DNA of 51,731 nucleotides, taken from contig JAGVUD010000382.1 in the NCBI GenBank assembly GCA_019136435.1, positions 1-51,731 on the forward strand. Reading direction: 5' to 3'. The DNA is from Armatimonadota bacterium. GTDB lineage: Bacteria; Armatimonadota; UBA5829; DSUL01. The translations under genes and the position numbers were made by a program. The notes under the pieces are model-generated. The model was given only the letters and a program-made list of their open reading frames with translations, was not told the origin of the DNA and ran no database searches. Each line of letters begins with the position of its first letter. Position 1 is the first letter of the stretch. Positions 3,444 through 27,486 of the stretch are shown here, one piece after another.

Positions 3444-4718
3444 GTGACAACCACACGAGAACCGGCCGCGCCAGCCGATCACGCCGCGCCAGCCGGAGCC
3501 ATCCCCGAAAGGGAGCATATCTGCTACTCCGCCGCGTACTTCTTCATGTTCTCCGCGGTCGCCGCCTACATGCTTCTGCCGCTGGTGCTGGTGGGGCGCG
3601 GCATGAGCCGCCCGGAGACGGGCTATCTGCTCGCGATATACGCCGCAGCGGGCGCCCTGACGCAGATGGGTATCGGCAGGCTCTCCGACCGCCTGGGCCT
3701 TCGCAGGCCGCTCGTGATCGCCGCCGCGCTCGTGCTGGCGGCGTGCTTCGCGGTATTCTTGAAGATGGACGGTTTCGGGCAGTACGCGGCGCTGTACTTC
3801 TTCGGCGGAGCGGCGTTCCACACTGCGGGCACAGCCCTGGCCGCCGCCATCGCCGACTGGTCGTCGGAAGGTCACCGCACAGCGACGGCGTTCGCCAGAG
3901 CCCGCCTGTGGGGGTCGGCGGGCTACGTGGTCGCGCTCATCGCGCTGACGCGGTGGGTGAAGAGCGATTCGGTTATCGTCGCGTGGGCAGCGGGGAGCTA
4001 TCTGCTGACCGCCCTTGCGATGATCCCTGCCCGCGAATCGGCGCGGCACACGCGGGCGGCGCTTAAGTTGCAGTCGCGCGCGAGCGAGCTTGTGCGGGAC
4101 AGAAACCTGGCTGTCTTTCTGGTCTGTTTCCTGCTGTTCAAGATCGCGGAGTCGGCGTCGAACGCTTTCGTCGCGCTCAGGCTGGACCAGCTCGGCGGAT
4201 CGCGCGCGCTGATTGCGTGGGCGCTCGCCATCAATGCCATCGCCGAGATACCGCTTCTGGGGCTGGCCGGGCCTCTAAGCGAACGCATCGGGCGGCGGCC
4301 GGTGCTGCTGGTGGCGCTGCTGGTGCTCCCGCTCAGGATGGCCGCCTACGCTTCGATTCCCACAGCCGCATGGGTGTTCCCGGTGCAGCTCTTTCACGGG
4401 CTCACATTCGGGTTTATGAGCGTGGCGAGCGTTGCGTACGTTGCGGACAGGGCGCCGGACGATCTGCGGGCGACTGCGCAGGGGCTGCTGCGGATGGCGA
4501 TGGCCGCCGGGATGTGCATCGGGCCGCTGGCGGGCGGGATGGTGCTGGCCGCCACAAACAGCATGCCCGCGCTCTTCTGGGTGCTGGGAGGCGTGGTGGC
4601 GCTGGGCGCGGCCGTGTTCGCGCTTTTCGTTGCGGAGTCGCTTCCGGGCGCATCGGTGAAGAGCGGCGGGATCTTCGGCAGGATTGCGGCCCACCCGATA
4701 TCAAGGATGAAACAATGA
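3444..4718 (+). CDS. Major facilitator superfamily transporter
   Basis: A 12-helix secondary transporter of about 424 residues. The motif A loop is clear after TM2 (GRLSDRLGLRRP) and is repeated in the second half (GPLSERIGRRP), giving the usual two six-helix bundles. I place the start at the GTG encoding VTTTREP, just ahead of the first helix (YSAAYFFMFSAVAAYML). An upstream ATG at 3375 would add 23 residues of non-membrane sequence lying in the divergent promoter region. Its stop overlaps the next start as ATGA (4715-4718), so it is translationally coupled to the secreted esterase. The substrate is probably a small sugar or metabolite; this is inferred from the neighbour, not seen. Confidence 0.85.
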   Translation: MTTTREPAAPADHAAPAGAIPEREHICYSAAYFFMFSAVAAYMLLPLVLVGRGMSRPETGYLLAIYAAAGALTQMGIGRLSDRLGLRRPLVIAAALVLAACFAVFLKMDGFGQYAALYFFGGAAFHTAGTALAAAIADWSSEGHRTATAFARARLWGSAGYVVALIALTRWVKSDSVIVAWAAGSYLLTALAMIPARESARHTRAALKLQSRASELVRDRNLAVFLVCFLLFKIAESASNAFVALRLDQLGGSRALIAWALAINAIAEIPLLGLAGPLSERIGRRPVLLVALLVLPLRMAAYASIPTAAWVFPVQLFHGLTFGFMSVASVAYVADRAPDDLRATAQGLLRMAMAAGMCIGPLAGGMVLAATNSMPALFWVLGGVVALGAAVFALFVAESLPGASVKSGGIFGRIAAHPISRMKQ

Positions 4719-6715
4719 GAATAACTGGTATGGCGGGCATGCTGATGGCGCTGCTCGCCGCAAGCATATCGGCGGGTCTGCCCGCCGCGGAGGCCGCTAT
4801 GTCGGAACAGACATCACGGGACACGAACACACACCACGAATTCCGTCCGCCAGTGAGCGGACGGCAGTGGGAAGCGCGGGCCAAAGACCTGCGGATGCAG
4901 ATACTCGTCAGCGCGGGTCTGTGGCCGATGCCGCCACGAACCCCGCTTCGTCCCATCGTAACCGGCCGCATAGACGAGGCCGATTACACGGTCGAGAACG
5001 TAGCAATCGAGACGATGCCGGGCTACTACCTGTGCGGAAGCGTCTATCGGCCCAAAGGCATGAAGGGCCCGTTCCCGGCTGTGGCAAACCCTCACGGGCA
5101 TCAGCAGGTGGGGCGTCTGCATATCGCCCCCGATGAGCCGATCGCGGCGCCGCCGCCGGCAGCGCCCGCGCCCGGCAGGGGCAATCTGGTGGCGATCGGG
5201 GTGAATCTGGCGCGCCAGGGCTACGTCGTTTTCGCTTATGACATGATCGGCTACAACGACACGTCGCAGACGCCGGATCACCGGCAGTTCGCCAACAACC
5301 CGGAGTGCTGGCAGTGGGGCATCAGCGCGATGGGGCTGCAACTCTGGAACAGCATCCGGGCCGTGGACTACCTCTGCAGCCTGCCCGAGGTGGACCCCGC
5401 AAGAATCGGTGCAACGGGCGGCTCGGGCGGAGGGTCTCAGACGTTTCTGCTCACTGCTGTTGACGACCGGATCGGCGCCGCCGTGCCCGTGAACATGGTG
5501 TCGTCGTATATGCAGGGCGGTTGCCTGTGCGAGAACGCCCCAGGCCTCAGGATCGGCACGGATAACGCCGAGATAGCCGCGTGCGCCGCGCCGCGGCCGC
5601 TGTCGCTTGTCTCGGCGACCGGAGACTGGACTTCGCACGTGCCGGAAGAGGAAGGCCCGGCTATCGGCAAAGTGTACGAGTTGCTGGGCGCGGCGGAGAA
5701 GGCGGAGTGGCCGCAGTTCAACTACGGGCACAACTACAACATCGAAAGCCGCGAAACCATGTACGCCTGGTTCGGGCGCTGGCTGAAAGGGGACACGAAC
5801 CGCGAGCACTTCCGGGAGAAGCCTTTTGTGCTCGACCCCGAGCGCCTGCGGGTCTGGACAGAGAGCCATCCGAGGCCGGTGCACGCGCTGACCGAACCCG
5901 GGATCATCGCGGCCATAAAGGAGCGCAGGACAAAAGCAATGGCGGACGCTGCTCCGAAGGACGCTGCTGCTCTGGCGCAGTACAGGGAGGCGATGACGCC
6001 CGCCCTGGCCGTGTGTCTGGGCATAGCCCGCAACGAGCTTCCGGCCGTGCGGGCGGCGGGGCGCAAGGCGGGAAAGCCGGCCCGGGCAGTCCTCGTGTTT
6101 GCGGAGGACGCGGCCGCGCAGGCGCGGGAGGCGCGGGAGGCGCGGGAGGCGCGGGAGGCGCGGGAGGCGCGGGAGGCGCGGGAGCTGCGCGACCTTCTGA
6201 TTGCGCGAGGCGTCGAGGCCGTGGAAGTGGTGCTGCCGCCGCTCGATGACGACCCGTCGAGGGCATGGAGCGAGTTCTACACCTGCTATAACCAGACCGC
6301 GCTCGGGAAGGCGACGGCCGTCGCTGTACGCCAGATCCGCGCCGCGTCGGCGCGCTCCGGCGAGTCCCCGGCGATTGTGGGGATCGGCCGGGGAGGCCTC
6401 CCGGCGCTTCTCGCCGCAAGCCTGACCGCGCCGGAGACACGCGTGGCGGTGGACTGGGGCCGTTTCGACCCGTCGAACGACCGGGACTATCTGGAACGTC
6501 TGTGGGCGCCTTGCATACGGGGAATGGAAGGTCCCGAGACGGCCATCCGGATTCTCGCCGGCAGCGATCTGTGGCTTATGAACACAGGCGGCTGGTCACT
6601 CGCCGGAGCGGGCAGGCTTTTCGAGGCCTGCGGCGGCTCTCTGAAGCAGAGCGCGGAGCAGGCGAGCGTGGAGCAGATTGCCGGCTGGCTCACCAGAGCG
6701 CGGCCGTTTCAGTGA
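4715..6715 (+). CDS. Secreted alpha/beta-hydrolase, acetylxylan-esterase-like
   Basis: A 666-residue protein starting at the ATG that overlaps the MFS stop codon. A signal peptide (about residues 1-28) points to export. Residues 85-370 form an alpha/beta-hydrolase domain of the acetylxylan esterase/dienelactone hydrolase type. The nucleophile elbow is GGSGG (Ser237), with a probable acid in SATGDWT (Asp304) and a probable His in NYGHNYN (His339). Residues 390-666 form a second, degenerate domain that recalls the same fold (GIGRGGLPALL has an elbow shape without Ser). Between the halves, 9-base repeats encode seven ALA-ARG-GLU triplets (6122-6184), probably a charged helical linker. The protein probably removes ester decorations from glycans. 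Confidence 0.82.
   Translation: MRITGMAGMLMALLAASISAGLPAAEAAMSEQTSRDTNTHHEFRPPVSGRQWEARAKDLRMQILVSAGLWPMPPRTPLRPIVTGRIDEADYTVENVAIETMPGYYLCGSVYRPKGMKGPFPAVANPHGHQQVGRLHIAPDEPIAAPPPAAPAPGRGNLVAIGVNLARQGYVVFAYDMIGYNDTSQTPDHRQFANNPECWQWGISAMGLQLWNSIRAVDYLCSLPEVDPARIGATGGSGGGSQTFLLTAVDDRIGAAVPVNMVSSYMQGGCLCENAPGLRIGTDNAEIAACAAPRPLSLVSATGDWTSHVPEEEGPAIGKVYELLGAAEKAEWPQFNYGHNYNIESRETMYAWFGRWLKGDTNREHFREKPFVLDPERLRVWTESHPRPVHALTEPGIIAAIKERRTKAMADAAPKDAAALAQYREAMTPALAVCLGIARNELPAVRAAGRKAGKPARAVLVFAEDAAAQAREAREAREAREAREAREARELRDLLIARGVEAVEVVLPPLDDDPSRAWSEFYTCYNQTALGKATAVAVRQIRAASARSGESPAIVGIGRGGLPALLAASLTAPETRVAVDWGRFDPSNDRDYLERLWAPCIRGMEGPETAIRILAGSDLWLMNTGGWSLAGAGRLFEACGGSLKQSAEQASVEQIAGWLTRARPFQ
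6122..6184 (+). repeat. Tandem 9-base repeat, seven copies, inside the esterase gene
   Basis: Seven exact copies of GCGCGGGAG. The unit length is a multiple of three, so copy-number change keeps the frame; each copy adds Ala-Arg-Glu. It lies at the join between the two domains of the esterase. Confidence 0.97.
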
Positions 6716-19799: not shown

Positions 19800-22670
19800 C
19801 TAACGAAGCGGCTCACCCTGGCTGATTACCGTCACATTGGCGCGGGCGGACAGGCCCGCTTTACCCTGGCACGAGAACCCGATCTCGTTGACCCCGCGCG
19901 CAAGCGTCGGCGGCACGCCCCGCGGGGTAACGTCGCGGACGAACGCGCCGCTCTGCGCGAACAGCTTGCAGTCGGTCATGGAGCGGAACTCGACATAACC
20001 CCCGCTTTCGATCTCGCAGGGGAACTCGATGGCGCGGCCAGCGATCGTGACCCTCGGATTGCGCAGGGTGTTGCCCCTCACTGTCAGCGCCCTGACAGGA
20101 CCCATCAATGCTGTGACTTCCCTGCCGGCCGGGATGTTGCCCAGCCACAGGCCAAAATACCCGACCTGATCGTAATGGACGAGTTCGCGGAACATCGCAT
20201 AGACATTACTGGAGTACGGCCACTGGCAGGATTCCGAGCGCTCGCCTTCGGGCTCGATGAGTTCGAAATAGCGCCAGCCGGTGAAGTCAAGATGGATGTA
20301 GTGATCAGCGATGCCAGTAGAAAGATGGATCGGGCTGCGGACCTGCAGGTTGAGCGTGGCGCCGCTGCCGTCGCCGCGCATCCACACACCGAGCGCCTGA
20401 CGGTCGCCGAGGTTGATGGACGGGTCCATCGTGATGCCGCGCTCGCACCACGCCGGCCCCTCTCCCGTCGAACGCTGCCCGTGCTCGATCGGGGAGAACG
20501 CGGCCTCCCCGCCGCCCTCCACGCGCGGAGCGGAGGCCCTGAGCAGTCCATTGCCCGCTCCGTCCTCGTCCGAACGTTCGAGCGCCGCGGTGACCCCGGA
20601 GCTGGCCGAGACCCTGTCGAAGCGCGAAAGGTCGCTGAAATCCGTGAGAGTCACGTTCTCGGGCGCGTCGTAAGCATCGGCCGACCAGAGCGCTTCGACT
20701 CTGATAGCCGGCTCCTGCGCCGCGAACCTGTTCCGCACCGTCCAGGACGCCTTGCCGTTCTTGCCACAGACAGCCTTGTGCTTCGCATAGTCCACCGGCC
20801 GCACCTCCGGCTTGCCGGAGGCTGCCCTGCGGACCGTGAAATCGCTGCCCGGCTCGCGCAGTTTCGCCTTGATCGAGTCGGACAGTTCCCCGGACAATCG
20901 CACGTCCTCGCAGCGCCCGATGACCTCGCCCAGGCGCGCCAGAGCGTCGTTCGCCTTGATCGTGTCCGGGTCAACGCCCATCATCGCGATGCCGCAGTCC
21001 GTGCCGATGGCTTTGCAGCAGAGATACTCGATGTCGTCGCTGAACGTCCGCTCGGTCTGCGAGCTGGCCGCCGGTTTCATCGCCCACCAGCCAAGTTGTC
21101 CCGGCAGGAACATGCGGGAGTTGGCTTCGTTGGACCGGCAGTGGATGTCAATGAACTTCTTGTGGCTGCGGGAAGGATGGTCCCAGGCGCCCATGCGCGA
21201 GCGCACGAACCAGAGATGATGGTGGAAGGTGCTCATCTCCTGCAGCGCGGGGCGCTCGAGATGCTTCCAGATCTCGAAGACGAACTTCGAGCCGTAGTGC
21301 CACGCGTTTTCGTGCCCGCCCAGGATGCCTTCGCCGTCGAGCGCGTCGAGGTAGATCATATCGAACCCGCACTCGTTGAACACCTCGGCGGTGCGGGCGG
21401 CGACCTCTTCGAGCAGCGTCGAGTCGCCGTCGGGCGTGAACAGCCCGAAGCACTCCTTGAGATGCCCGACCTTCGCGCCCTTCGCGTGAGCGGCGGCCTT
21501 CGTGCCCCACGCTCCGCGCTGGCAGCCGGTGAAGCCGTAGGGCGCTGTCTTGGAGACCCCGGTATAGACGATGAGTTCGTCGTCTATCTGCACGGTCACG
21601 CTGTTGTGCACGAAGAATCCGGTGATTGTGGACATCTTCTCGGTGGACTCATCCGTCGGCACAACGGCCGCGTCCGCGGCGATGTCGGCGCTCAGCGTGA
21701 AGACGGCGTCTTTTCCGAGGCGCGGATCGGGCACGGGGCTCACCCATTCGCAGTCTTTCGCGAGGAAGAAGGCGTAGGTGTGCAGACCGGCCTTGATGCC
21801 GGCGGCGTGCAGCATGTCCACAACCGCCTTCAGGCTCTTGCGCCCCTCCGGATACCATCCCGGATGCGGGCGAAGATCACCGAAGCGGTGCGATGAACCG
21901 CCGTGGAAGTCAATCTGGGTGATGCCGAGCTTCTTCGCGAGAGCGATCCACTCGGGTGCGGTCTCCAACGTCAGATTGCCGAAGTTGAAGAGATAGGACT
22001 CGCGGTTGGCGTCCGAGTCGAGCGCCCACGGGCCGCCGATGGACGAGTGGGGCAGTTCCGGGGCATCGGTGACGGCCTGCTGCATAACGCCGCGGAGCTT
22101 CTCCGCGGGGCAGCCGATGATGGCGATGCCCGTACCCTCGAACCCGAAGCGCGGATACGCCAGCCCGCGCAGAAGCTTGTTCGCGCCCGGAAGCTCGGGC
22201 ACGTTGGTTCTGACGTTGCGCGCAAGCGCGCACCCCGCGAACGGGTCTCTCTCGCCTTTGGCCGCGGAATCGAGAGTGATGTTGGCAAGCGACAGCTTCT
22301 CGATGCCCTCGCCCGTGAAGGAGCGGACTTCGAGGATGAGGTACTCCGGCTTCTGCGTGACCTGCACCTCGGCTGCCGCGCCCGTCTCCCCGAACGCGAG
22401 TTTGAGGATGCCGCCGCTGAACGATGCGGAGCTGGCCCCGTACTCTGTGCCGTTCTTCCAGACACTGGCGCACCACGACGGCGCGTCGCTCAGGCGGTCG
22501 CTGCCTGTCTTGCGATCGGCAAACCGCACGTTCCGCCCGTTCGGGCTGATCTCATAGACAAGGTGTCTGGTCTCGAACTTGATTGGTGTTTTCTGCATAT
22601 CCTCTGCGCAATCCGCGGCGAGCGACAGCGCCAGAACAAGCGCCGCCGCCGCACTGAACACACGTGGCAT
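19800..22670 (-). CDS. Large secreted protein with a TIM-barrel glycosidase-like centre
   Basis: A 956-residue protein with a signal peptide (1-22). Residues 30-215 look like an N-terminal beta-supersandwich (VYEISPNGRNVRFADRKTG). Residues 230-620 have TIM-barrel strands: ITQIDFHGGSSHRFGD, GIKAGLHTYAFF and GFDMIYLDALDGEG; the last, with Asp residues at a strand end, resembles the nucleophile strand of clan GH-D and related alpha-glycosidases. C-terminal parts (about 680-950) are beta domains resembling a CBM. The family is not one I can name with confidence. It lies 33 bases upstream of the propeller gene and 73 bases downstream of the amidase, all on one strand. A role in glycan cleavage is inferred. 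Confidence 0.72.
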   Translation of the reverse strand: MPRVFSAAAALVLALSLAADCAEDMQKTPIKFETRHLVYEISPNGRNVRFADRKTGSDRLSDAPSWCASVWKNGTEYGASSASFSGGILKLAFGETGAAAEVQVTQKPEYLILEVRSFTGEGIEKLSLANITLDSAAKGERDPFAGCALARNVRTNVPELPGANKLLRGLAYPRFGFEGTGIAIIGCPAEKLRGVMQQAVTDAPELPHSSIGGPWALDSDANRESYLFNFGNLTLETAPEWIALAKKLGITQIDFHGGSSHRFGDLRPHPGWYPEGRKSLKAVVDMLHAAGIKAGLHTYAFFLAKDCEWVSPVPDPRLGKDAVFTLSADIAADAAVVPTDESTEKMSTITGFFVHNSVTVQIDDELIVYTGVSKTAPYGFTGCQRGAWGTKAAAHAKGAKVGHLKECFGLFTPDGDSTLLEEVAARTAEVFNECGFDMIYLDALDGEGILGGHENAWHYGSKFVFEIWKHLERPALQEMSTFHHHLWFVRSRMGAWDHPSRSHKKFIDIHCRSNEANSRMFLPGQLGWWAMKPAASSQTERTFSDDIEYLCCKAIGTDCGIAMMGVDPDTIKANDALARLGEVIGRCEDVRLSGELSDSIKAKLREPGSDFTVRRAASGKPEVRPVDYAKHKAVCGKNGKASWTVRNRFAAQEPAIRVEALWSADAYDAPENVTLTDFSDLSRFDRVSASSGVTAALERSDEDGAGNGLLRASAPRVEGGGEAAFSPIEHGQRSTGEGPAWCERGITMDPSINLGDRQALGVWMRGDGSGATLNLQVRSPIHLSTGIADHYIHLDFTGWRYFELIEPEGERSESCQWPYSSNVYAMFRELVHYDQVGYFGLWLGNIPAGREVTALMGPVRALTVRGNTLRNPRVTIAGRAIEFPCEIESGGYVEFRSMTDCKLFAQSGAFVRDVTPRGVPPTLARGVNEIGFSCQGKAGLSARANVTVISQGEPLR

Positions 22671-22743: not shown

Positions 22744-25700
22744 CTACTGTCCCGCGAGATCGTCCTGGCTTCTGAGCAGCAGCACGGGGCCATCTTCGCC
22801 GCTGAGGATGCCCGTGACAACCACGAACGAGCCTGCCGGAGGAGGCGTGACCGACACTCCCGCGTCGGAATACCGGACACTGAGCGAAGCGCCGCCATCG
22901 CTGAGCGTGAACAGACCAGCGGCCGTGTCAACCGAACTGACCCGGCCGGCCGCGCTCATGAGAAGCCCGACTCTGTCCGGGCCTGCCGCGGCGACGAGGT
23001 CGCGGGTGTTGCAGAAGAGCGGCCGAGCGGGCTGTGAGGCGCCCTCGACGTAACGGCACGGGATGACCGTCCAGGCCCCGCCAATGCTTGCCACGCGGCC
23101 GAACACCGTGACGCGCGACCCGCGAGCGGGCACGGGAAGCGCGGCCAGGGCCGTCCAGTTCGCCAGCGCGCCCGCCGAGCGATCGGGCATCTGGACTGCC
23201 GCGAACGGATCGCCCGCGCCGGCCGTCACAGCCAGCGGCAGCAGCCAGGCCTGCCCACCCGCGGCAAGTCTTGCCTGCCCGATGCTGCCAGCGCTCACAG
23301 GATGCGCGGCGGCAGCTTCGCCGCCCGCGCCCGCCCAATCGAAGTACGCACCGCCCGCGCCCGGGCTTCCGCCCGCACCCGGGCTCCGGCCCGCAAAGAG
23401 CCAGCCATAGCCGGGGCCGGGGGGGAAGTCCCGCGCCGCCATTGCCACCGGCCCCGCGCCCGCGTCGTAGCTCGCCTGAACAGTCCCGCCCGAGTGCCAG
23501 ACGCTGAGCGCGACCGGCCCCGGGGAGAGTCCGGGTATCTGCTGCACCGCCTCAGACGCGCCCGGCGTTCTGACGGTCCAGACCGCCGTGACACTGCCTC
23601 CCGGGTCCGTCCTGAGCGCGAGCTTCGCGGTTGAGGCATTTTCCATCGGCAGCCCCTGCCCCGCGACCAGCGCGACCCCGCTTTCGTGTGCGCCGGAGGA
23701 AGGGACTGCCGGTGTGACGCTGGCGCTGACGCTCATCTGCCCGTCGAACGCCTGCGCGGTTATGAGATCGCTGCCCGCATGCCCTCCCGAGCCCGAATAC
23801 GCAATCCCCAGCCTGCCCGACGCAACCGTCGGCTGGCCACCGGCGGCGCCAGCAAGTATCCAGTTGGCGGAGTTGAGCGCACCGCCGGTGAACTCGTCAG
23901 TGAATCCCTCATCGGCGGCGACGCTGATGGGCGAGACGCGCTGGTTGATCACGTGACGGCGATAGTCGCCATGGAACAGCGCGACTGTGTACGCCCCGGA
24001 CGGGGCCCCGGCGGGGATCGTGAGCGCGCACGGAAACACCGCCGATCCGCCCGCGGGAAGCGGCACGTTGCGCAGCAGGTCGAGCACGTAAGACGGGCGT
24101 CCGGACGAGTGCGTCAGCGTCGCCCAGAGATCGAGGCTCAGGGGGAAATCAAGCGAGCTGGAGGGCATCCACTGCAGCGGCAACGTCTGGCCCGGCTTCG
24201 CCGACGCCGGAAGTCCACTGATGCTGATGCCGGCCGACCCGGCTGGCGGCAGCAGGAAGCGTACCGCATCCTCCATCACGCTGTCCCTTGCGTCGCGGGT
24301 CAGGAGCGTCTCGAAGGGATACCCGAGAAACACCACGCGCCAATCGCCCGAGAAGACCGCCGCCGCGCCGTCGGCGGTGCCGCCCACGTAGTTCTGCGCA
24401 ACCTGTCCGCCATTGGCGATGACCCTGTCAGGGAAGGCAACGTCATACATCGCGCCCGAACCGTTGCTGAACCCGAACACGCCCGTGGATGCGGCCGCGG
24501 GGAAGGCGGTGAGCTTGAGCGCCTCCTGCATCTGCGTCAGATGCAGCATATGGTCGTCGCCGGTCGTGCCCTGGTAGGAACGGATCCGCAGCAGGCCCAG
24601 GTCCACCGTGGACTCGAGCGTCATGCCCGTCGCGTCCGTGCCCGAGGCGGCCACGCGGGACGCGCCGACAGCCTGTATGATCGCGTCGGCGCACTCGCGG
24701 GTGCTGGCATACGTGCCCGGCACAAGCTGCGAATGCGTCATCGTGAAGGTGATCCGGCTGTGCGCGGCGCGCAGGGCCATCCGCGCGAACTCCCGTATCT
24801 GGTTCGGATCGGGCACGGTCTGCCCGTTGACCGTCACGTAGCCCGCGTAGAGCGAATCGGCCAGCACGATGTCGGTGATCATCCCGTCGTACTCGGGATA
24901 CTTGAGAATCTGGCGCACCGCGCCGTATCCCGCGCTGAAAGATGTGAGAGCGAGACGGCCGATTCCGATCGGGCGGCCGTACACCTGCGTCAGACGATCT
25001 CGCGCCTCAGCCAGGATGGAGCGGAACAGATGGCGGTCAGAAAACGGCGTCGAGTACGCCGCGGACAGCCCGCCGTAGTTGATGACGATCAGAACCCCCG
25101 ATTTGCCGGACTGCAGCAGATTCTGCAGGGCCACGCTGTCGGCGCCATGGAAGTGAACCGTGACGTCCGCATGATCGAGCGGGGGTTGGTATCCATCCGG
25201 GATGTAGAGCGTGCCCGTCGAGAGCGCATACGACGACGCGCCGCCCGGAGAAGGAGGTGGAGGGTCCGGCAGTGGGGTGAAGGGCACGGCTGTCCCGGTG
25301 ACGTGGTACGTGTTCGCGTCATCGCCGCCATAACGGACTTTGAGCACTTCGCGGACGAACAGGCTGTCGGCGTCCGCCGGGTCGGTGTTGCGGTCCAGGT
25401 CGTAGAGGATCTCCGCGCCGCTCACGAACAGATGCCCACCGCCCTGGGCATACGCGCGGATGAGCGCCTGCTCGGCAGCGGTGAAGGAGTAGTACGTGTC
25501 CGGCTGTCCGGCCACCACATTCGCCTGACGCCCCGCCGCCCAGTCCACGAGAGCGTAGCGGTTCAGGTCTACCTCGCCCGACGACACCGCCTCGTTGGAG
25601 GCCGAATCGAACGCCTTTCCCAGCCGGTGGAGCGAGCTGGCGTGCTGGATGACATAGTCGAACGTGTTGACCCACTCCGGGCGCTCGCGGGCGGGGCTGC

Positions 25701-27486
25701 CGATCTCACGCCCCGAAGCCTTGAGCGGCACGATTGTGCGGTCTACGCGGTCGTAGCCGTTGACGATGAGAATCCCGGGCAGCGTGCCGCCGGGGGCAAC
25801 GCGGACGGCCAGCGTTTCGGACGGCAGTGAGACTCCTCCGGCGTTCACGGCCGCAACCCGGTAGTAGTAGAGCTGGCCGGAGCTGACCACCGTGTCGGTG
25901 AACGACGAGTCCGCGGCCGCGCGCCCGGAGTCGAAGCCCAGGCCGTCCGGGCTGCGATAGACGATGTAGCTCGCGGCGGGATCGCCAAATGGACCGCCCG
26001 AAGGACCCGCGCTCCACGACAGCCTCACCTGTCCCGTGCCTGTGTTTCGCACGGCAAGGTTCACGGGCGGCTCGGGCAACAGGCGGGGCGTGACGCCATC
26101 GCGGGCGGCGTAGTACTTCGCGATTCCCTGATACACCGAACGCGCCACCGCCCGCCGCCAGCACGGGTTACGCAAAGACAGGGCATCGGTGGCGTCGTCG
26201 TGAAAGGCGACTTCGATGAGCGCGGCGGGCATCTCGGGGTTGTTGGAGGGGCTTAGCTCGCCCACCTCCAGCGTGCCGATTCCTCTGTCCGGCCAGGACG
26301 CGTCGAACTGCGCGCGGATGGCGGCGACAATCTGGTTGTGGACGGCGGCTGTCAGCAGGGCGGACTGCGAATCGGCCGCGAGCGTCGAGTGATAGAAGCT
26401 GCTTGTTCCGCGCCCACCGCCCGCGTTCGAATGCCAGGAGAGATAGACTGCGTCCTCATCGGCCAGGTGCTGCCAGGCAGCGTAGCGCGGGCGGGCTGAG
26501 GCGTCGTCGCCCGCTCCGCAGCTTGTCTGAGCGTCGTAGCACGAGCTGACGGGGTTGTACACGGACGCGGGCGCTCCGGCGAAGAAGGCGAAGTAACGCC
26601 CCGCTTCCTCGAAACGAGGATAGCCGCTCGCGCCCGAGCCTCTGTCCACGATGCCCGTGCCTCCGCCGAAGCGCACGGCATCCGCACTGACGGCGCCCGT
26701 GCCGGAGGCGTCGTTCAAAAGCATCACCGACCCGGCGGCGGGGCTCGAGCCGGCCTGGAAGTGGAAACTGCCGAGAGGAACCCAGGTGCTGCCGTGGCGG
26801 GTCTGGTCCAGATAAACGTGCGTGACGCCGCCCGTATGCCGCACGATGTAGTGTGCGCGGGACGCTCGCGAGGCGCCGGACGAATACGACACCGACACGC
26901 TGTAGTATCCCGCCGAGGGCAGGTTGGGTGTCCAGATGGCCGAGGCGCTGGCGGGTGAGGTAATGCTGGCGAGGCGGCCGCGCCCGCCGGAAGCGTAGGC
27001 GGCGAACACCTGCTGACCATCCTGATAGGGCCAGCGGAAGTTGATGAACCCGCCGGAGGAATCCTCGGACCACGCGCCGGTCTCGCTGTACGTGCCGTTG
27101 TCCGGGCGCGACGAGCCGTCCTGATCGTCCACGATCACCATACGCGGGTTCAGGTCGCTTTCGCGGCAGGGCCACACGGCGGCGCCCGCATTCTGGAGAT
27201 ACTGGAGGAGGTGCAGATTGACGGTCTCGGTGTTCGAGAGGTCCTCCACTATGTTGTTCGTATTCCCGCGCTGAACCATCCAGGCATCATACGCCCCATT
27301 GTAGTACCAGCCGTGGCCAGCGCTGACATAGACATGCCTGCCGGTCAGGAAGCCGTCCGCGCGGGCGCGGGGGCCGGTCGCGGCCAGCAGAACCGCGATG
27401 AGAAGCAGCGCGGCAGGAGCAAAGCGGGCGGTGCGTGGTGTCGGCAAGTCTGTTCTGGGTCCCTTCTTCGAAGGCGATGCGCGCAT
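22744..27486 (-). CDS. Multidomain secreted N-acetylmuramoyl-L-alanine amidase fusion with nested domains
   Basis: A 1580-residue protein with a signal peptide (hydrophobic 24-37, cut near ARA 44). An Amidase_3 zinc domain is split in two. The first half has SAGHG (His58) and Glu87 in NTE. After an inserted golvesin/xanthan-lyase-type beta domain (about 140-275) the second half has SWHSNA (His352) and IEVAFHDD (Glu425). Then follow an FN3 domain (472-563) and a ThuA/GATase-like domain (570-1080). The latter is interrupted by a proline linker (738-749) and an alpha/beta-hydrolase (about 750-990) with SFSAGYG (Ser851), Asp877 and DDHM (His979). A beta-sandwich (about 1165-1370) and OB-fold-like repeats (about 1430-1580) end the protein. 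Probable role: cell-wall cleavage outside the cell; the role of the hydrolase is unknown. Confidence 0.85.
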   Translation of the reverse strand: MRASPSKKGPRTDLPTPRTARFAPAALLLIAVLLAATGPRARADGFLTGRHVYVSAGHGWYYNGAYDAWMVQRGNTNNIVEDLSNTETVNLHLLQYLQNAGAAVWPCRESDLNPRMVIVDDQDGSSRPDNGTYSETGAWSEDSSGGFINFRWPYQDGQQVFAAYASGGRGRLASITSPASASAIWTPNLPSAGYYSVSVSYSSGASRASRAHYIVRHTGGVTHVYLDQTRHGSTWVPLGSFHFQAGSSPAAGSVMLLNDASGTGAVSADAVRFGGGTGIVDRGSGASGYPRFEEAGRYFAFFAGAPASVYNPVSSCYDAQTSCGAGDDASARPRYAAWQHLADEDAVYLSWHSNAGGGRGTSSFYHSTLAADSQSALLTAAVHNQIVAAIRAQFDASWPDRGIGTLEVGELSPSNNPEMPAALIEVAFHDDATDALSLRNPCWRRAVARSVYQGIAKYYAARDGVTPRLLPEPPVNLAVRNTGTGQVRLSWSAGPSGGPFGDPAASYIVYRSPDGLGFDSGRAAADSSFTDTVVSSGQLYYYRVAAVNAGGVSLPSETLAVRVAPGGTLPGILIVNGYDRVDRTIVPLKASGREIGSPARERPEWVNTFDYVIQHASSLHRLGKAFDSASNEAVSSGEVDLNRYALVDWAAGRQANVVAGQPDTYYSFTAAEQALIRAYAQGGGHLFVSGAEILYDLDRNTDPADADSLFVREVLKVRYGGDDANTYHVTGTAVPFTPLPDPPPPSPGGASSYALSTGTLYIPDGYQPPLDHADVTVHFHGADSVALQNLLQSGKSGVLIVINYGGLSAAYSTPFSDRHLFRSILAEARDRLTQVYGRPIGIGRLALTSFSAGYGAVRQILKYPEYDGMITDIVLADSLYAGYVTVNGQTVPDPNQIREFARMALRAAHSRITFTMTHSQLVPGTYASTRECADAIIQAVGASRVAASGTDATGMTLESTVDLGLLRIRSYQGTTGDDHMLHLTQMQEALKLTAFPAAASTGVFGFSNGSGAMYDVAFPDRVIANGGQVAQNYVGGTADGAAAVFSGDWRVVFLGYPFETLLTRDARDSVMEDAVRFLLPPAGSAGISISGLPASAKPGQTLPLQWMPSSSLDFPLSLDLWATLTHSSGRPSYVLDLLRNVPLPAGGSAVFPCALTIPAGAPSGAYTVALFHGDYRRHVINQRVSPISVAADEGFTDEFTGGALNSANWILAGAAGGQPTVASGRLGIAYSGSGGHAGSDLITAQAFDGQMSVSASVTPAVPSSGAHESGVALVAGQGLPMENASTAKLALRTDPGGSVTAVWTVRTPGASEAVQQIPGLSPGPVALSVWHSGGTVQASYDAGAGPVAMAARDFPPGPGYGWLFAGRSPGAGGSPGAGGAYFDWAGAGGEAAAAHPVSAGSIGQARLAAGGQAWLLPLAVTAGAGDPFAAVQMPDRSAGALANWTALAALPVPARGSRVTVFGRVASIGGAWTVIPCRYVEGASQPARPLFCNTRDLVAAAGPDRVGLLMSAAGRVSSVDTAAGLFTLSDGGASLSVRYSDAGVSVTPPPAGSFVVVTGILSGEDGPVLLLRSQDDLAGQ

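Follow-up and report, generated by a model that had tools for sequence, protein, structure and literature searches.

The 51,731-nucleotide stretch of an Armatimonadota genome analysed here (the window) carries a gene for a 1580-residue protein that had been read in an initial annotation as an amidase with a complete hydrolase nested in a loop of another domain. The question is whether one enzyme has indeed been inserted into a domain of the other, where the inserted part came from, and what the combined protein might do. The predicted architecture is listed in Table 1, in which residue n of the amidase starts at position 27486-3(n-1) of the minus strand. The N terminus is hydrophobic and signal-like over residues ~20-44, as seen in the sequence, and the protein is probably exported. 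Pfam gave no match in the window protein between residues 560 and 1090. The last ~190 residues form a domain common on other proteins of the same genome and class. No match to the C-terminal part as a whole (1091-1580) was found in the uninterrupted amidase relatives, and none to residues 1093-1428 in 20 related genomes.

Table 1. Predicted features of the amidase gene in the window
Feature	Position	Strand	Size or basis
Whole gene, predicted exported amidase with nested hydrolase	22744..27486	-	1580 aa
Predicted Amidase_3 catalytic domain, residues ~48-458, split by golvesin domain	26113..27345	-	Pfam match on 343-456
Golvesin_C, residues 177-273, nested in amidase	26668..26958	-	Pfam PF25275, 4.3e-26
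Putative fibronectin type III domain, residues 473-560	25807..26070	-	Pfam fn3, 2e-4, under curated cut-off
Predicted ThuA-like host domain, first half, residues 570-736	25279..25779	-	Comparison with uninterrupted relatives
Predicted inserted alpha/beta-hydrolase domain, residues 737-1001	24484..25278	-	Free-standing relatives, conserved residues, fold
Predicted ThuA-like host domain, second half, residues 1002-1085	24232..24483	-	Comparison with uninterrupted relatives
C-terminal part, residues 1091-1580	22747..24216	-	Last ~190 residues match other proteins

The Amidase_3 assignment comes from a Pfam match over residues 343-456 (4.9e-11; 43.4 bits against a cut-off of 27). His58, Glu81, His352 and Glu425 sit in matching Amidase_3 motifs of the window protein, and we take them to be the zinc-binding or catalytic residues, assuming the roles that these positions have in the family. 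The arrangement in which Golvesin_C is nested in the amidase and is followed by the fn3 and ThuA-like domains was confirmed. Since an amidase split by a golvesin domain is also present in Bacteroidota relatives, in a Marinicella relative (L112) and in a Verrucomicrobiota relative (L130), this split is ordinary for the family; the fn3 domain is likewise found in amidase relatives. The protein is thus predicted to be a golvesin-type N-acetylmuramoyl-L-alanine amidase.

To examine the proposal that the segments flanking the hydrolase are two halves of one domain, residues 565-736 were joined to 1002-1090, as the initial annotation had suggested, and used as a query. The joined sequence gave a continuous match in four Bacteroidota proteins (27-30% identity), two of which are annotated as 'xanthan lyase'. 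It also matched continuously in 80 loci, kept out of 352 relatives that the genome collection yielded; their sources include Verrucomicrobiota, Sumerlaeota, Planctomycetota, Marinicella and Bacteroidota. One such match covered query residues 6-253 at 39% identity (E 5e-45). The hydrolase insert was found in none of the 80 kept loci, and compared with them the window protein alone splits at host model position 202-206. Tyr727 and Phe1006 are separated by 278 residues in the window protein, against 16-20 (median 17) in 47 aligned relatives with a continuous host domain, which belong to other phyla. The loop of one relative (L091) reads VQGIAGSIFEGLSFSFDDG, and the corresponding region of the window protein reads VTGTAVPF-[insert]-STGVFGFSNGSG. 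An AlphaFold2 model of residues 562-1092 placed both host halves mostly at pLDDT ~85-95, with lower values in loops and low values in the insert. These comparisons indicate that a single predicted ThuA-like domain is made up of residues ~570-736 and ~1002-1085.

For the alternatives, in which the flanks are two distinct domains in succession or the insert has long been a fixed component of the family, the only point in favour would be that the flank halves carry no Pfam annotation in the window protein. Such readings are refuted by the 80 loci, which match the joined flanks continuously without an insert, and we consider them extremely improbable. The initial annotation had itself named the lack of any uninterrupted version as the observation that would count against an insertion; many uninterrupted homologues were found, and the insertion stands. 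Its naming of the host domain as 'ThuA/GATase-like' has support for the family, as Pfam ThuA matches 11 of 48 host-domain relatives (best 6.6e-7), but not for the window copy taken alone, which gave no match. A search of the genome contigs with residues 570-1090 as a single query gave no match; the peptide patterns used had probably been drawn from regions peculiar to the window protein.

The coordinates given for the hydrolase in the initial annotation proved right, and its motifs were located where they had been placed: a proline stretch at residues 739-749, SFSAGYG at 849-855 with Ser851, Asp877, and DDHM with His979. An oxyanion-type HFHG motif lies at residues 778-781. Ser851, Asp877 and His979 show no variation in 32 aligned rows of the family, in which His780, Ser849, Phe850, Gly853, Ser878 and Gly973 are also invariant. 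Together with the amidase residues in their matching motifs, this bears out the earlier view that both catalytic sets look intact. Structure prediction covered the window protein, not the free-standing hydrolases. Modelled alone, the insert showed the canonical strand-helix order, in which strands 5, 6 and 8 are followed by Ser851, Asp877 and His979, respectively; the geometry is rough, since the model was built from one sequence (mean pLDDT 52). The place of Asp877 counts against the assignment, as the acidic residue usually follows strand 7.

A Foldseek search with the insert alone listed 50 matches, all of them alpha/beta-hydrolase enzymes by description (esterases, lipases, cutinases, thioesterases and dehalogenases), the best listed being a Streptomyces lipase (3.3e-4, probability 1.00). 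The same search with the two-domain model, in which the insert part is low in confidence, gave no match under 0.001. A sequence profile of the insert compared with the PDB had esterases as its best matches; these were weak (3doh, 0.0047), with the alignment lying at the oxyanion-hole motif. The inserted hydrolase reached the curated cut-off of no Pfam or NCBIfam family. We conclude that the insert is a predicted complete alpha/beta-hydrolase domain of ~265 residues with a candidate Ser-Asp-His triad, and that the enzyme is probably an esterase, as suggested by the modelled fold.

Free-standing relatives of the insert were found close to the source genome. A sister genome, G002, which belongs to the same family, encodes a 276-residue free-standing protein with a signal peptide; this protein is 54-56% identical to the insert and matches it over residues 752-995 at 56%. 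The source genome itself contains two more distant free-standing copies (L002 and L003, best 38%), and signal peptides are visible in the free-standing hydrolases of both genomes. Of the 291 genomes of the phylum, 45 contain a match to the family, nearly always as one copy each, and in none of these matches was the hydrolase seen joined to an amidase. No relatives were found with the hydrolase profile among viral contigs or plasmids. A maximum-likelihood tree groups the insert with the G002 protein as its sister, with support of 100/99; their end branches are 0.44 and 0.48, and thus show no sign of decay. On these sequence comparisons the insert is native to the bacterial family of the source genome. 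These free-standing relatives and the 80 continuous loci together uphold the initial annotation's central proposal of a complete hydrolase nested in a loop of an otherwise uninterrupted domain.

Among the members of the hydrolase family (L002, L003, L009 and L172-L195), most have a proline-rich segment, for example LPVPPPM, behind the signal peptide. The proline stretch described earlier as a linker may therefore belong to the captured protein and not be a linker in its own right; the closest free-standing relative (G002) has no such segment, unlike most of the others. One minus-strand open frame of 607 aa (L050, ~3570-5390) contains two hydrolase units in tandem; the second is more distantly related and has SSHSGG as its nucleophile motif.

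The host domain has a different distribution. In the source genome and the phylum (291 genomes) no uninterrupted copy was found, and matches to the profile were short and confined to long open frames of unrelated content; the closest relatives of the joined host are Sumerlaeota and Marinicella proteins with ~40% identity. As the complete host domain was not found in the rest of the 291-genome set, the host amidase looks foreign to the phylum. A prepilin-type N terminus encoded in the source genome suggests that this phylum is probably Armatimonadota. Most simply, the lineage would have taken up an amidase gene from outside and rebuilt it with native parts.

The existence of both an uninterrupted host and a free donor family implies a domain insertion of the form A1-B-A2, and we hold with high confidence that the gene arose by insertion of a secreted hydrolase into the ThuA-like domain, a degree of confidence which covers the insertion and the anatomy and excludes the substrate. 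A whole secreted-hydrolase domain, minus its signal peptide, would have entered a surface loop of the ThuA-like domain. The host domain would still fold from its two separated halves, and the insert, tethered at its two ends, would fold on its own into a serine hydrolase (Ser851-His979-Asp877). The two insert junctions are not flanked by any clear direct repeat. Only one metagenome-assembled genome (80.7% complete, in 548 contigs) has the fusion, with no second instance among the phylum genomes and the 80 kept host loci, a point in favour of an assembly error that joined a free-standing hydrolase fragment into an amidase gene. Such a chimera would, however, need two junctions, each in frame and each at a domain border, with the signal peptide removed. 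GC content (0.66-0.67) and GC3 (0.83-0.86) are the same in the insert and its flanks, and the source genome has no near-identical second copy of the insert (best 38%). A chimera is accordingly very unlikely.

What the two enzymes do together is less certain than how they were joined. The Amidase_3 site would cleave the amide between MurNAc and L-Ala, and the insert would most likely hydrolyse an ester, or an acyl linkage of another kind, either on that surface polymer or on one next to it. Joint action of both sites on peptidoglycan (amide and ester) is plausible. In its specific form, in which the amidase cuts the stem peptide from MurNAc and the insert removes an ester decoration such as O-acetyl from the same glycan, the proposal fits the two catalytic sets, which are intact in sequence, the signal peptides of the free donor family, which mark it as exported, and the fold of the insert, which matches esterases. 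Against it, nothing found ties the free-standing hydrolase family to peptidoglycan, and its G002 copy adjoins endonuclease IV-like and serine acetyltransferase-like genes (named by eye). We regard this specific form as possible but less likely than not.

The gene neighbourhood bears on the same point. Around the amidase (window 15384-37269) are genes for GH123, a Gfo/Idh/MocA oxidoreductase, a pectate-lyase-like protein, an NPCBM-melibiase, GDPD and BNR proteins. The GH123, melibiase, GDPD and BNR genes point to other glycans too, so that, with these or unnamed genes as neighbours, the esters of other glycans are also possible substrates. The substrates of the hydrolase might thus be esters of polysaccharides or of other compounds that have nothing to do with peptidoglycan, with the amidase and its golvesin and ThuA-like domains serving mainly as an exported, surface-binding scaffold. 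The abundance of glycan-degrading genes nearby favours such a role, as do the cutinase, PETase-like, feruloyl and acetyl-xylan esterases among the fold matches listed; the amidase residues, on the other hand, are still intact. We consider this role a serious possibility, though short of an even chance. The gene that adjoins the amidase (window 19800-22670) encodes a 956-residue, exported-looking protein, parts of which read like a glycosidase barrel. It has no Pfam match, and this one neighbour to be checked has no homologue in three sister genomes of the same family, which counts against a role read from the neighbourhood and makes gene context weak evidence. The most far-reaching scenario, a single-step, lineage-specific capture of a free-standing secreted esterase from an unnamed family by a surface loop of a cell-wall amidase, giving a doubly nested, exported two-enzyme protein that trims both a cell-wall amide and an ester, is in our view possible but doubtful.

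As an example of a gene captured through domain insertion the locus is unusually clear, since the fused product can be compared with both the host lacking the insert and the free donor. It also brings to light a hydrolase family that neither Pfam nor NCBIfam models, and a ThuA-like loop able to accommodate a 265-residue enzyme; should both activities act together, the product would be a two-step wall-processing enzyme. No relevant paper on golvesin-type amidases or a ThuA-nested hydrolase was found in the literature collection searched.

Compared with known golvesin-domain amidases, such as the Bacteroidota 'xanthan lyase' WP_195399325.1 and the Marinicella protein L112, the window protein has the same order of Amidase_3 split by Golvesin_C, fn3 and ThuA-like domain, and the best relatives are 38-41% identical to it over the joined host. 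Unlike the window protein, they lack the hydrolase insert, and their C termini either lie at or shortly past the ThuA-like domain or consist of different parts. In the Sumerlaeota relative L090 (2835-8861) the ThuA-like domain is followed by a glycosyl hydrolase-like GHL10 domain, which shows that such amidases can gain a second enzyme terminally as well. The ThuA family (Pfam PF06283) may likewise be related through those host relatives that match it, whereas the window copy is without a match and is interrupted. The free-standing secreted hydrolases (G002, L002 and L003) correspond to the insert over the entire mature domain, including Ser, Asp, His and the further invariant residues, but are independent proteins with their own signal peptides, whereas the window copy is nested.

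The ThuA-like domain of amidases is also split in two Verrucomicrobiota relatives, L130 (~4823-6112) and L160 (1354-2631), by an extra ~160-175 residues. As in the window, an additional stretch interrupts the domain, but it does so in another loop (model position ~238 versus ~204 in the window) and no hydrolase motif was seen; part of the L130 stretch matches Pfam FlaA. These insertions appear to be independent of that in the window, with a seemingly non-enzymatic domain, and suggest that the host domain tolerates such events. Domain insertions, in which one domain interrupts another as in the window, occur in about 20% of multidomain proteins (PMC13114784), so the kind of event is already known. 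What is new here is the predicted pairing of an amidase with a hydrolase, the hydrolase family, which has no name, and the fact that both parents can be had in unfused form: in comparison with domain insertions in general (PMC13114784), the window protein can be set beside an insert-free host and a close free-standing donor.
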